Below are positions 3,577-56,937 of a stretch of 64,000 nucleotides of DNA, one piece after another. This DNA comes from Rhodospirillum sp. Its GTDB lineage: Bacteria > Pseudomonadota > Alphaproteobacteria > Rhodospirillales > Rhodospirillaceae. The position numbers and the translations under genes are program-made. Every line of letters starts with the position of its first letter. Positions within the stretch are counted from its first letter, which is position 1. The DNA lies in NCBI GenBank assembly GCA_021741145.1, contig JAIOYK010000018.1, positions 1 through 64,000 on the forward strand, given 5' to 3'. Under the pieces are notes generated by a model. The model searched no databases. It saw nothing but the letters and a program-made list of their open reading frames with translations, and was not told where the DNA came from.

Positions 3577-3610
3577 TTATGAACGGGTCGTCAAGAAACT
3601 CCTCCACAGT

Positions 3611-3781
3611 GGACCGGCGTGAGGAATCCCGTCAAGCGCCCGACCGGGCGCCGGGCGAAGCCCGCCCCGCCGGAGCTGTCCGCGGAGCGGACCGGCGTGA
3701 GGAATCCCGCCAAGCGCCCGACCGGGCGCCGGGCGAAGCCCGCCCCGCCGGAGCTGTCCGCGGAGCGGACCGGCGTGAGGC
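3611..3781 (+). repeat. Array 1 of a three-hairpin repeat (two 78-bp units plus a partial)
   Basis: Direct repeats start at 3611, 3689 and 3767 (partial), with period 78 and a single base change between the first two. Each unit holds three stem-loops: H1 GCGCCC-GACC-GGGCGC (3636-3651), H2 CGGGC-GAA-GCCCG (3652-3664) and H3 GTCCG-CGGAG-CGGAC (3678-3692), followed by GGCGTGAGG. The array ends 20 nt before the dehydrogenase start codon at 3801. A related tandem array in the same orientation precedes queF at 56750-56937. The frames that stay open across it are a by-product of the 78-bp (26-codon) period. Confidence 0.9.
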
Positions 3782-3800
3782 ATATAAAAGGACTTAAGGC

Positions 3801-5072
3801 ATGGAAAATTCCTTGGAGGGGGGGGCGCCCGAGGGCGTTCTGGTGGTTGGCGCGGGAATCATTGGTGTCTGTTGCGCCATTGCCCTGCGCGAGGCGGGAT
3901 TGTCGGTGACCTTGGTGGACCGGGGTCCGCCGGGGAACGAAGCCAGCAAGGGCAACGCCGGATGTCTGGCGGCGAGTGAGATCACCCCCATGGCGGCGCC
4001 GGGAATGCTGTGGAAGGTGCCGCGGTGGCTGCTCGATCCCCTGGGTCCCCTGTCCCTGCGTCCGGCCCATTTGCTCAAGGCTCTGCCCTGGTTCCTGCGG
4101 TTCCTGGCCACCGGCCGGACGGAGACCGTGAGCCGTCTGACGGCGGGGCTGGCGCCCCTGTCCCAGGCGAGTTGGGAGCTGTGGCCCGGGTTGGCCGAAC
4201 GGGCGGGGATCGCCGACCAGATTACCACCAAGGGCAGTTTGACCGTTTACGAGACCGAGGCCGCCTTCCAGGCCGATGCCGAGGACCGGGCCTTGAAGGC
4301 ACGCCACGGCGTGCCCCACCAGGTTCTGACCGCGGCCGAACTGGCGGAACTGGAGCCCGACCTAGCGCCCCGCTTTAAGCGTGCGGTGCTTTTCCCGCGC
4401 TGGGCCCATGTGACCGATCCCTATCGCATTGTCCTGAAGTTGCTTGCCCATGCCTTGGAACTGGGGGTGACTCTGGAAAGCGGTGAGGTCGCCGCCATCG
4501 AGAAGAACGGCAAGGCCCGCCACCTCCGCCTGACCGATGGCCGCATCCTCGCCGGATCCAAGGTGGTGATCGCTGGCGGCGTCTGGTCCAAACCCCTGTG
4601 CGAGGCCCTGGGGGCGTCGGTGCTGCTTGAAAGCGAGCGGGGGTACAACACCACTCTGCCGACGCCAGGGATCACCCTGAACCACCCCATCACTTCCGCC
4701 GAGGGCAAATTCGTGCTCACCCCCCTGGCCATCGGGCTGCGGGTCGGCGGCGCCGCGGAATTCGCCGGGACGGAGGCGCCGCCCAATTACAAACGGTCCG
4801 ATGCTCTGCTCACCTTGGCCCGACGTTTGGTGCCCGGGGTGAAGGAGGAGGGCGCCGTCCAATGGATGGGCCATCGCCCGTCCACCCCCGATAGCCTGCC
4901 GGTAATCGGGCGCCACCCAGCGGACCCCAAGGGCGTGCTGCTGGCCTTCGGCCATGGCCACCTGGGGCTAACCAACGCGCCGGGGACCGCGGCCCTGATC
5001 GCGGCCCTGGCGACGGATGGGGAGCCGCCCTTCAACCCCGCTCCCTTCATCGTCGAGCGCTTTGCCTCCTGA
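3801..5072 (+). CDS. FAD-dependent D-amino acid (probably D-hydroxyproline) dehydrogenase
   Basis: A 423-residue DadA-like oxidoreductase. The Rossmann dinucleotide motif GAGIIGVCCAIALREAG is at about residues 17-33, followed by the acidic ribose-binding end of strand 2 (VTLVDRG) and the family sequence ASKGNAG. The C-terminus has the second FAD stretch (GHGHLGLTNAPGTA) after the W-M-G-x-R-P-S-T-P-D block typical of D-amino acid and sarcosine oxidases. It sits 54 nt before a hydroxyproline epimerase, which points to oxidation of cis-4-hydroxy-D-proline with electrons passed to the respiratory chain. TTAAGG lies just before the ATG. The exact substrate is inferred from context. Confidence 0.82.
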   Translation: MENSLEGGAPEGVLVVGAGIIGVCCAIALREAGLSVTLVDRGPPGNEASKGNAGCLAASEITPMAAPGMLWKVPRWLLDPLGPLSLRPAHLLKALPWFLRFLATGRTETVSRLTAGLAPLSQASWELWPGLAERAGIADQITTKGSLTVYETEAAFQADAEDRALKARHGVPHQVLTAAELAELEPDLAPRFKRAVLFPRWAHVTDPYRIVLKLLAHALELGVTLESGEVAAIEKNGKARHLRLTDGRILAGSKVVIAGGVWSKPLCEALGASVLLESERGYNTTLPTPGITLNHPITSAEGKFVLTPLAIGLRVGGAAEFAGTEAPPNYKRSDALLTLARRLVPGVKEEGAVQWMGHRPSTPDSLPVIGRHPADPKGVLLAFGHGHLGLTNAPGTAALIAALATDGEPPFNPAPFIVERFAS

Positions 5073-36579: not shown

Positions 36580-36671
36580 CGATGCATCCAGGGTGAGAAG
36601 ACAGTCGTGTCTTAAAAAGAAGGCGCGGATTTCCCCGTGCTCTTTGTTAACCGTTAAAGGGGATTACTCTC

Positions 36672-37691
36672 ATGAAAAAGGTTCTTTTCGGAACCACCAC
36701 CCTGGTGGCCGCCGGCCTCATCTCCGGTACCGCCTTCGCTGGCAACGTGACCTCCAAGGACAACCTGGAGCTCTCCATCGGTGGTAAGATGGAGCAGTAC
36801 TTCGGTGGCGTGGGCACCTTCGAAGACGGCGGCCGTGAGGATGGGTTCGGTATCAACACCGACACCGAGCTGTACTTCACCGGCAAGACCACCCTGGACA
36901 ACGGCATCACCGTGAAGGCCGTCATCCAGCTGGAAGCCCAGACCTCCAACACCACCAACGCCGACGAGCAGTACGTCGAGCTGTCCGGTTCCTTCGGTAA
37001 GATCCAGGCCGGTCAGAAGGAAGACGCGGCCACGCAGCTGGCCGTGACCGCTCCGACCGTTGGGTCCGTTGGCGTCAACGACACCTACGTCTGGCTGGGC
37101 GCTCCGACCTCCGGTTCCTTCGCCGGTGGTGACACCACGTGGTCCTCCGACGACGCGACCGTGTCTTACTTCACGCCGTCCTTCTTTGGCTTCAGCGGCG
37201 CGGTGTCCTACACCCCGACCCCCGGTTCCGCCCTGGTTCCCGCCGGCACCACCGGTCGTGACAACGTCTACCTGAGCGTTGGTTTCTCCAACGAGTTCTC
37301 TGGCGTTGGCATCGACGCGGACGTCGGTTCCGTCATCGATACCTCCCAGGACTCCTGGGGCATCCGCTCCGGTCTGAACCTGTCCTACGCCGGGTTCACC
37401 GCTGGTGGTTCCTTCTTGACCATGCAGGGTAGCGACAACGGCGCCAACGAGACCTACATCTGGGATGCCGGCGTGTCCTACGCTGTTGGCCCCTACGCTG
37501 TTGGCTTCACCTACGGCGCCAACGACACCACCACCAGCGACCAGCAGTCCTACAAGCTGGGCGGTTCCTACAACATGGGCGCCGGTATCGATCTGGTTGG
37601 CAACGTGTTCTACGCGGACTCCGACTCCTCGGGTGCCAACGGCCAGCGCGATGGCGTCGGCGCCGTCGCCGGTGTGGTTCTGTCCTTCTAA
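36672..37691 (+). CDS. Outer-membrane porin (copy 1)
   Basis: A 339-residue precursor with a signal peptide (MKKVLFGTTTLVAAG..., cleavage after AFA at 23). The mature part is a beta-barrel sequence with alternating hydrophobic and polar residues and short turns, ending in the aromatic beta-signal V-V-L-S-F recognised by the BAM complex. It belongs to the general porin superfamily of Gram-negatives. Codon use is strongly biased towards a few codons, as expected for a very abundant protein. A strong terminator follows. It shares nearly its whole N-terminal third with copy 2. Confidence 0.9.
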   Translation: MKKVLFGTTTLVAAGLISGTAFAGNVTSKDNLELSIGGKMEQYFGGVGTFEDGGREDGFGINTDTELYFTGKTTLDNGITVKAVIQLEAQTSNTTNADEQYVELSGSFGKIQAGQKEDAATQLAVTAPTVGSVGVNDTYVWLGAPTSGSFAGGDTTWSSDDATVSYFTPSFFGFSGAVSYTPTPGSALVPAGTTGRDNVYLSVGFSNEFSGVGIDADVGSVIDTSQDSWGIRSGLNLSYAGFTAGGSFLTMQGSDNGANETYIWDAGVSYAVGPYAVGFTYGANDTTTSDQQSYKLGGSYNMGAGIDLVGNVFYADSDSSGANGQRDGVGAVAGVVLSF

Positions 37692-37886: not shown

Positions 37887-37979
37887 GTCCGGGCGAATAA
37901 TGGCTTATTCCTTCTTGTCTTGAGCCCAAAGCGGTGTTCACACCGCGATCAAAAACTGGTTTATAGAGGAAATAAGCAC

Positions 37980-39011
37980 ATGAAAAAGGTTCTGTTCGGA
38001 ACCACCACCCTGGTGGCCGCCGGCCTGATTTCCGGTACCGCCTTCGCTGGTAACGTGACCTCCAAGGACAACCTGGAACTCTCCATCGGTGGTAAGATGG
38101 AGCAGTACTTTGGTGGCGTTGGCACCTTCAAGGACGGCGGTCGTGAGGATGGCTTCGGTATCAACACCGACACCGAGCTGTACTTCACCGGCAAGACCAC
38201 CCTGGACAACGGCATCACCGTGAAGGCCGTCATCCAGCTGGAAGCCCAGACCTCCAACACCACCAACGCCGACGAGCAATACGTCGAGCTGTCCGGTTCC
38301 TTCGGTAAGATCCAGGCCGGTCAGAAGGAAGACGCCGCCACTCAGGTGGCCGTTGTCGCTCCGACCGTTGGAGCCGTTGGCGTGAATGACACCTATGTTT
38401 GGTTGGGTGCTCCGAACAACGGGTCCTTCCTGGGCGGTGACACCACCTGGGGTTCCGATGACGCGAGCGTGGCTTACTTCACGCCGTCTTTCTTCGGTTT
38501 CACCGGCGCGGTGTCCTACACCCCGACCCCCGGTTCCGCCCTGGTGCCCGCCGGCACCTCCGGTCGTGACCAGATTGACTTCGGTGTTGGCTTCTCCAAC
38601 GAATTCGGTGGGGTTGGCATCGACGCCGACGCCGGCGCTCACTTCGTCACCTCCGACGACGCCTACATGATCCGGTCTGGCCTGAAGCTGTCCTACGCCG
38701 GGTTCGCCGTTGGCGGCTCCATGCGCACCATCCAGGGCAACGACAATGCCGGCGACGGCACCTGGCAGTGGGATGCCGGTGTCACCTACGGTGTCGGTCC
38801 CTACGCCGTTGGCTTCACCCACGGCGGTGTGCTGGGTGCTGGCACCCTGGGCGATCAGCAGTCCTACAAGCTGGGCGGTTCCTACGCCATGGGTCCCGGC
38901 GTCAGCCTGGTTGGCAACGTCTTCTACGCCAATGAGGACGCCAACTCCGCCGCGGCCAACGACTCCCGCGATGGTATCGGCGCCGTCGCCGGTGTGGTTC
39001 TGTCCTTCTAA
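37980..39011 (+). CDS. Outer-membrane porin (copy 2)
   Basis: A 343-residue precursor, tandem paralogue of the previous gene. Residues 1-122 differ from copy 1 at one position only (Glu51 to Lys), and the last residues (GAVAGVVLSF) are the same; the middle differs in the loop regions, as for surface-exposed porin loops. The start is at 37980, where the protein begins with the same signal peptide; the open frame upstream to 37827 is leader. It has its own promoter element and its own terminator, so the two genes can be expressed separately. Confidence 0.9.
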   Translation: MKKVLFGTTTLVAAGLISGTAFAGNVTSKDNLELSIGGKMEQYFGGVGTFKDGGREDGFGINTDTELYFTGKTTLDNGITVKAVIQLEAQTSNTTNADEQYVELSGSFGKIQAGQKEDAATQVAVVAPTVGAVGVNDTYVWLGAPNNGSFLGGDTTWGSDDASVAYFTPSFFGFTGAVSYTPTPGSALVPAGTSGRDQIDFGVGFSNEFGGVGIDADAGAHFVTSDDAYMIRSGLKLSYAGFAVGGSMRTIQGNDNAGDGTWQWDAGVTYGVGPYAVGFTHGGVLGAGTLGDQQSYKLGGSYAMGPGVSLVGNVFYANEDANSAAANDSRDGIGAVAGVVLSF

Positions 39012-56269: not shown

Positions 56270-56737
56270 CTATCCCCGCCCCCGATAGCCCGGCACGCCC
56301 TGCTCGGGGATCCAGACGACCTTGGGTGCTTCGCCGGTCTGATAAAAGACGTCGATGGGCATGCCGCCCCGGGGGTACCAGTAGCCGCCAATGCGCAACC
56401 ATTGGGGAGAGAGCAGGTCGATCAGCCGCTTGCCGATGGAAACGGTGCAATCCTCGTGGAAGGCCCCGTGGTCGCGGAAGGACCCCAGGTAGAGCTTCAG
56501 GGATTTGCTCTCCACCAGCCAGTCGCCGGGGACGTAGTCGATGACCAGATGGGCGAAGTCCGGTTGTCCGGTGATGGGGCAAAGGGAGGTGAACTCCGGC
56601 GCCGTGAAACGCACGCAGTAGGGGGTGCCCGCCTGGGGGTTGGGCACCTTCTCCAATTCCGCGGCCTCGGGCGAGGCGGGGAGGGCGGTCTTGCCCCCCA
56701 ACTGGGTCAGATTGGCGTAAATGTTGTCCTGGGTCAT
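56270..56737 (-). CDS. queF: NADPH-dependent preQ0 reductase (type I)
   Basis: A 155-residue QueF that reduces the nitrile of preQ0 to preQ1. The thioimide-forming Cys is Cys53 in [13 protein letters not shown], with the general acid Asp60, and the NADPH motif is E-S-K-S-L-K-L-Y followed by [11 protein letters not shown]. Its length fits the unimodular YkvM type. Its leader contains the second three-hairpin repeat array, which ends GCGTGAG 8 nt before the ATG and may supply the ribosome site. The que genes upstream make its substrate. Confidence 0.95.
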
Positions 56738-56749
56738 TTTTAGATCTCA

Positions 56750-56937
56750 CGCTTGTCCGCCGCGCGGACGCTTCGATGGGGCGCGCTGACCGCGCGGCGC
56801 CCGGTCTCCCCAAAGGGGAGCGGTCCGCCCGGGCGCCTGGGCTTTTTTCCGATCTCACGCTTGTCCGCGTCGCGGACGCTCCGATGGGGCGCGCTGACCG
56901 CGCGGCGCCCAGTCGGGCGCTTGGGTATCCTTTTCAA
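56750..56937 (-). repeat. Array 2 of the three-hairpin repeat, upstream of queF
   Basis: On the minus strand two units follow each other. The first reads GCGCCCGACTGGGCGC, then CGCGC-GGTCA-GCGCG, then GTCCGCGACGCGGAC and AAGCGTGAG. The second has the same H2, H3 and tail, but its H1 tip is enlarged by an extra hairpin (CTCCCC-TTT-GGGGAG). Compared with array 1, H2 has changed on both sides (CGGGC/GCCCG to CGCGC/GCGCG), so pairing is kept. The tail lies 8 nt before the queF ATG. Orientation relative to the downstream gene is the same as in array 1. Confidence 0.88.

Follow-up and report, generated by a model that had tools for sequence, protein, structure and literature searches.

Two tandem arrays of hairpins in a 64,000-nt stretch of Rhodospirillum sp. 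DNA (the window) end shortly before a start codon, which raises the question of whether they are leaders of the genes that follow or members of a more widely dispersed repeat family. A preliminary description had assigned both arrays an H1-H2-H3-GCGTGAG layout, and both are present as described: array 1, on the + strand, consists of two full 78-bp units after a 5'-truncated third copy (2.2 copies with 98% matches according to TRF), and array 2, on the - strand, of two units (Table 1). The general unit plan, with small departures, is AAG-H1-H2-CCCC(GCC/ATC)GGAG-H3-(N)GCGTGAG. In array 1 the stems are H1 GCGCCC/GGGCGC, H2 CGGGC/GCCCG and H3 GTCCGC/GCGGAC, followed by the GCGTGAG tail; in array 2 H2 reads CGCGC/GCGCG, confirming the earlier reading that both sides of this stem changed with pairing kept. 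The queF-proximal unit of array 2 has an extra hairpin (CTCCCCTTTGGGGAG) within its H1 loop.

Table 1. Repeat units of the two window arrays, with E-values under the covariance models R1 (built from source-genome copies) and R2 (built from units of other genomes).
Feature	Position	Strand	R1 E	R2 E	Parts and remarks
Array 1, 5'-truncated copy	3610..3627	+			end of H3 and GCGTGAG 3617-3623; read from sequence, in register with window repeat D7
Array 1, unit 1	3628..3705	+	1.6e-24	1.6e-16	H1 3636-3651, H2 3652-3664, core CCCCGCCGGAG 3665-3675, H3 3678-3692, GCGTGAG 3695-3701
Array 1, unit 2	3706..3783	+	3.2e-23	2.6e-15	H1 3714-3729, H2 3730-3742, core 3743-3753, H3 3756-3770, GCGTGAG 3773-3779
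Array 2, unit distal to queF	56850..56928	-	5.3e-22	1.3e-18	H1 56920-56905, H2 56904-56890, core 56889-56879, H3 56877-56863, GCGTGAG 56860-56854
Array 2, unit proximal to queF	56742..56844	-	8.4e-15	2e-10	GCGTGAG 56752-56746

The neighbours of array 1 are co-directional genes for a GntR/FCD-type regulator and a DAO-domain FAD oxidoreductase (nearest NCBIfam model D-amino acid dehydrogenase, with a score below its cut-off), and those of array 2 are the co-directional queE and queF. The last tails end 21 nt 5' of the oxidoreductase ATG at 3801 and 8 nt 5' of the queF ATG at 56737. The core pattern has three exact matches in the window and none in 100 shuffles; the folding energy of the arrays, taken alone, is mildly unusual (z -2.1 and -2.7) and constitutes weak evidence. 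At gathering score, Rfam returned two overlapping tmRNA matches in the window and nothing else, and a permissive scan gave a sub-threshold Xoo8 match (E 0.71) over part of array 1 and no match on the units of a further locus (L147). Two other repeats were seen in the window: a 26-bp tandem repeat of 3.3 copies at 1615-1700, itself hairpin-like, at the end of the open reading frame 144-1625, and a 300-nt repeat (36660-36959 versus 37968-38267, 95% identity, 1308 bp apart) followed by more matching stretches, in the manner of duplicated genes.

When the source genome was searched at nucleotide level with array 1, 12 matches had E<1e-4, array 1 among them, and a pattern search added one further copy. 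The covariance model and whole-genome search that had been proposed were carried out: R1, built from 14 source-genome copies, detects 22 matches below E 0.01 across the 5.47-Mb genome, where the training copies match by construction, and it also finds the repeat in relatives. Among the source-genome copies H1 occurs as GCGCCC, GCGGCC, GGGGCC and GGGTCC, each with a matching partner, and H3 as GTCCGC, GCCCAC and GTGCCC; GGAG precedes H3 in 12 of the 14 copies, with GAAG and GGAC in the other two. Copies lie at tRNA genes at L031, at L032 and L039 (one array), at L034 and, by eye, at L051, and an open reading frame ends within 150 bp of the GTGAG end at L043, L044, L047, L048 and L050. The only source-genome copies whose GTGAG end faces an open reading frame start within 150 bp are array 1, array 2 and L040, the last 55 bp before a weakly scored frame. 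The placement before start codons stressed in the preliminary description stands for the two arrays themselves, but a link to start codons is not supported for the family, and copy positions in the source genome and in the loci described below led us to reject a start-codon leader.

Across 61 relatives, R1 has matches in five genomes, the source genome included. Strong matches occur in G020 (one copy) and G042 (two copies): by eye, the G020 copy and one G042 copy abut tRNA-Ser genes, and the other G042 copy stands 78 positions past a tRNA-Arg gene and immediately next to a repeat of part of that gene's 3' end. The matches in G015 and G033 (E 0.002 and 0.007) resemble coding sequence and were taken as chance, and R1 found no match in the one same-genus genome examined. 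An exact-pattern scan of an 84,980-species collection returned 101 matches in 95 stretches, and 78 of the 80 titles listed bear alphaproteobacterial names, the exceptions being one 'Pseudomonadota' and one 'Verrucomicrobiia' bin. These stretches are referred to below as the named loci; because the scan pattern contained CATCGGAG and GTGAGATA, the tRNA-type subfamily is favoured among them. R1 finds 128 units there, 126 of them distinct. R2, a model built from named-locus units alone, is positive at E<=1e-4 in 34 of 385 genomes sampled from the class, with at most 12 candidates scored per genome, which makes copy counts lower bounds. R2, although trained solely on other genomes, also recovers all four window units (E 2e-10 to 1.3e-18). 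These repeats of ~80-115 bp with three hairpins form a real dispersed family in many Alphaproteobacteria, to which both window arrays belong as ordinary members located away from tRNAs.

Plasmid and phage records searched by blastn with one composed query gave no match at E 1e-3, and two pattern scans of IMG/VR gave one contig each. One predicted viral contig (L263) carries a unit pair with GTGAG ends outward before a portal gene, and a second viral contig also carries an outward pair, by eye. In the source genome, a perfect palindrome with 15-bp arms (L052, C85:32463-32544) lies between terminase- and portal-type phage genes, at the same place as the L263 pair, the terminase match having been tested in the source genome only. 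We read this palindrome as a putative collapsed unit pair. Some 45-140 bp to its left, two paired CGTC-type REP-like palindromes are visible by eye; they belong to a different repeat family.

The hairpins covary. In the 14 source-genome copies, 88.8% of pair cells are standard, against 30-42% paired in slid controls, and 21 cells show both-sided changes against a shuffled mean of 7.4 +- 2.2. For the 126 distinct units from other genomes, in an alignment that was fitted to the structure, 89.7% of cells are paired (slid controls 25-47%) and 398 cells show both-sided changes versus 119.6 when shuffled. The two inner pairs of H3 are both G.A/A.G in 91 of the 126 units and both standard (G-U allowed) in 28, with one of each in 1 and other combinations in 6, whereas source-genome copies of H3 are mostly fully paired. 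Tandem sheared G.A pairs are stable on the GTGAG strand, and the complementary strand would carry C.U mismatches. The all-or-none swap between standard and tandem G.A pairs suggests that the GTGAG strand folds. An energy model of the G.A-type H3 gives the GTGAG strand -2.9 kcal/mol against -2.1 for the other strand as DNA, and -6.9 against -4.8 as RNA; in isolation, this H3 folds no better than shuffles on either strand. Array L066 contains H3 of both kinds, as does the pair L098, which indicates that the switch was not a single founder event. The H3 loop is 3 nt long in 112 of the 126 units and has the form purine-N-A in 100; GCGAAGC is a very stable DNA mini-hairpin. GGAG is present in the 15 commonest strings, which together cover 118 of the 126 named-locus units, though the fetching pattern itself contained GGAG. 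Overall, the covariation counts and the H3 pair swap support the earlier proposal of selection on a folded single strand.

Placement gives a second line of evidence. Of the 128 units in the named loci, 56 have a tRNA 3' end no more than 60 bp away, compared with 94 of 25,600 (0.37%) under random placement, and the GTGAG end points toward the tRNA in all 56, the unit being antisense to it. For 47 of these the tRNA starts 5-8 positions beyond the model end, and 16 kinds of tRNA are adjoined; some of the remaining 72 are tandem neighbours or adjoin broken tRNA ends. The class sample contributes 29 loci, one from each of 29 of the 34 positive genomes. Ten of these are located at tRNA 3' ends, eight of them within 15 positions, L170 at 37 and L159 at 199 as an inner array unit; this is a raw count from a model trained on pattern-picked loci. 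The nearest feature beyond the GTGAG end of the 128 units is a tRNA 3' end for 55, another unit for 23 and, by crude calls, an open reading frame end for 18 and a start for 14, with nothing within 150 bp for 18. Within 15 nt of the GTGAG end these calls give 13 frame ends and 3 starts, or 12 and 1 once L126, L141 and L154, which are at tRNAs, are set aside. Neighbouring units within 400 bp form 24 direct pairs and 8 inverted pairs, all 8 of the latter with GTGAG outward and none inward. The preliminary description held that copies of random position and orientation, with no covariation, would reduce the family to a plain GC-rich repeat; the copies are instead placed in a strongly non-random way, though with respect to the 3' ends of genes.

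Probable traces of insertion are visible at the tRNA-distal end, where the tRNA-terminal bases (TGGNNN on the unit strand) recur in many tRNA-type units. Our test took the TGG nearest to -32, at 24-42 nt before the model start, blind to tRNA identity and in a range chosen after unit ends had been inspected. Such a TGG is found in 33 of 51 tRNA-adjacent units and is missing from 18, and positions 4-6 agree with the adjoining tRNA in 67 of 99 cells, a value reached in none of 2000 permutations. The signal comes from positions 4 and 6; position 5 carries no information, 7-8 stay close to background, and 11 and 14 are raised. In a coarser test, the best 14-base match averages 8.9 for the unit's own tRNA versus 8.1 for other tRNA types. 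Since four tRNA-Ser units match their tRNA over 13-14 bases, a duplication of about six bases is a provisional best reading.

Comparisons between loci and between sister genomes extend these observations. Near-identical units at tRNA-Lys (L126) and tRNA-Met (L101) of one MAG, the sole such pair at tRNAs with different hexamers, differ in a far-end base as the tRNAs do, and near-identical unit bodies also stand at tRNA-Ala (L113) and tRNA-Tyr (L136) of one MAG. At a tRNA-Arg locus, G349 carries a unit plus a remnant, bounded on either side by GCGCCA, and its sister G256 is unit-free; the flanks are 89 and 95% identical, and 46 bp beside the G256 tRNA have no G349 counterpart, making this a unit-free site rather than an exact empty site. 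Together with the recurring tRNA-terminal bases, this unit-free sister locus points to insertion. Tandem arrays at tRNA-Thr differ among three sister genomes, and no unit-free site was found in the genus of G370. Between a tRNA-Thr gene of G370 and the first unit behind it (L228), a 16-bp stretch (TTATTCCCTCACGGCA) recurs, a pattern that insertions might leave when aborted or excised. G001 and G020 have no unit at a tRNA-Met locus, where the alignment covers the tRNA but not the downstream flank. By eye, the ends of single units carry no terminal inverted repeats; inverted unit pairs have them.

These observations can be read in several ways. Transfer RNA 3' ends are classic integrase targets, and the units could be integration remnants, each a minimal attachment segment at which a tyrosine recombinase crosses over in the last tRNA bases, so that the shared bases would be the crossover region and not a transposase duplication. 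The short segment common to both unit ends, the near-identical units at tRNAs with the same first bases and the varying tRNA-Thr arrays agree with this. However, sixteen kinds of tRNA are used, copies also abut protein genes and occur on predicted viral contigs, and in the Lys/Met pair, albeit one pair, the far-end base changes with the target, and we regard an integration remnant as rather unlikely. The repeat also resembles tRNA-targeting integrative elements in its target and in forming arrays at one tRNA, but differs from them in being ~115 bp long, with no gene and a short shared segment.

Alternatively, the unit could be a functional RNA acting in cis as a 3' trailer or leader, kept by selection for tRNA trailer processing, mRNA stability or translational control. 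The strong covariation and the placement at gene 3' ends agree with such an RNA, and in the 14 arrays that end at a tRNA the nearest unit outscores the next in 10, ties in 1 and scores lower in 3. Against this, presence is patchy (34 of 385 genomes), the unit is absent at the same tRNA in sister genomes, the neighbouring genes are many and unrelated, and the G.A pairs speak for the strand that is antisense to the gene alongside. A cis-acting RNA is accordingly an unlikely explanation.

Two candidate mobilising enzymes, a Y1 transposase and a reverse transcriptase, were examined by gene content. Y1_Tnp, the domain of RAYT transposases, is commoner in unit-positive genomes (11 of 34 versus 61 of 351 unit-negative), and the tag before a hairpin, the inverted pairs and the gene-3' location all recall an ordinary REP mobilised by such an enzyme. 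Y1_Tnp is nevertheless absent from the source genome and from 23 of the 34 positive genomes. The 23 RAYT neighbourhoods in positive genomes, some of which run into contig ends, yielded one strong unit match, 2.2 kb away, and two weak ones (E 0.12 and 0.25), and the tag is GGAG rather than GTAG/GTGG. A RAYT partner is thus not supported, and we judge mobilisation of this kind very unlikely. RAYT-type genes at L189, L190, L192, L196, L197, L200 and L207 are flanked, by eye, by different palindromic or tag repeats of their own. A SINE-like or tRNA-primed retroelement, with an A-rich 3' end beside the target and a far end akin to a primer-binding site, would account for the A-run before TGG and the repeated tRNA end, but RVT_1 is present in 9 of 34 positive versus 88 of 351 negative genomes, and partial copies show no 5'-truncation bias: among 25 further matches, some of them surely chance, the 5' part is retained in 13 and the 3' part in 7, with 4 internal matches and 1 full one. 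With neither association nor bias, such an origin was rejected as extremely improbable.

Comparison with named repeat families gives a similar picture of partial likeness. As far as the accessible descriptions go, GTAG-tagged REPs are extragenic, carry a short tag in front of a hairpin, frequently lie at gene 3' ends and form inverted pairs (PMC2817692, PMC6006769), all of which the family shares, but it differs from them in its GGAG tag, its three hairpins and its direct tandem arrays at tRNA 3' ends. The REP definition, in the available part of its source, includes a GTAG/GTGG tag (PMC6006769). At the place of such a tag, 0-2 nt before the hairpin, these units have GGAG, and for a fully paired basal stem of 7-20 bp the 91 units with tandem G.A/A.G have an interrupted H3; a Y1 transposase gene flanked by the repeat was found neither in the source genome nor in the 23 RAYT neighbourhoods. 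The G.A-containing stem and the lack of a RAYT partner likewise separate the family from GTAG REPs with a RAYT (TnpAREP). CGTC REPs share the alphaproteobacterial hosts and the occurrence in pairs, and in the portion of their description available they have no dedicated transposase known and consist of one palindrome each (stem of 8-9 bp, loop of 4-5 nt), mostly arranged as head-to-head dimers, without mention of placement at tRNA gene ends (PMC3733652). In place of a CGTC tag and a single 8-9 bp palindrome, our units have three hairpins, with GGAG and GTGAG flanking H3.

CIR elements, CcrM-associated in Caulobacter and, in the accessible part of their description, ~110 bp long, intergenic, conserved among Alphaproteobacteria and equipped with 5' and 3' stem-loops (PMC2229807), are similar in size, site and structure but have a conserved GANTC. 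This motif is found in none of the 128 named-locus units and in 1 of the 14 source-genome copies, in its H2 region, and CIR membership is not supported. Like MITEs, ERIC and YPAL, the family is small and gene-less with a possible target duplication; unlike MITEs, a single unit has, by eye, no terminal inverted repeats and the family prefers tRNA termini. Our search of the open-licence literature found no published description, and an old name may exist in subscription papers. These repeats behave in a REP/MITE-like manner, yet lack defining features of the named families with which they were compared; we read them as a new family.

Overall, we consider it probable that the units are non-autonomous, structure-bearing mobile repeats of the REP/MITE kind, with a preference for tRNA 3' ends and an enzyme presumably supplied in trans; among the options offered by the preliminary description, the mobile palindromic element is the one supported. 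In such a scheme, the GTGAG-ending strand would fold as single-stranded DNA, H3 and its flanks would serve as the recognition end for the trans-supplied enzyme, insertion at the 3' ends of genes would duplicate some six bases of the target, and repeated insertion at one tRNA would build the arrays. At the window arrays, any effect on mRNA stability or translation would be secondary. That the units represent a new class of single-strand-DNA mobile elements, inserting exactly at the tRNA 3' terminus, recognised on the strand antisense to the target gene by a hairpin that combines tandem sheared G.A pairs with a purine-N-A triloop, and mobilised by a new enzyme family, is a possibility that we put forward tentatively. 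If the reading as a mobile repeat holds, a very small mobile element with defined ends and no genes would have seeded the tRNA 3' ends of a large bacterial class, which would explain the repeated sequence behind tRNA genes and offer a tractable system for finding the mobilising enzyme, and the natural swap between standard and tandem G.A pairs would reveal which strand folds.
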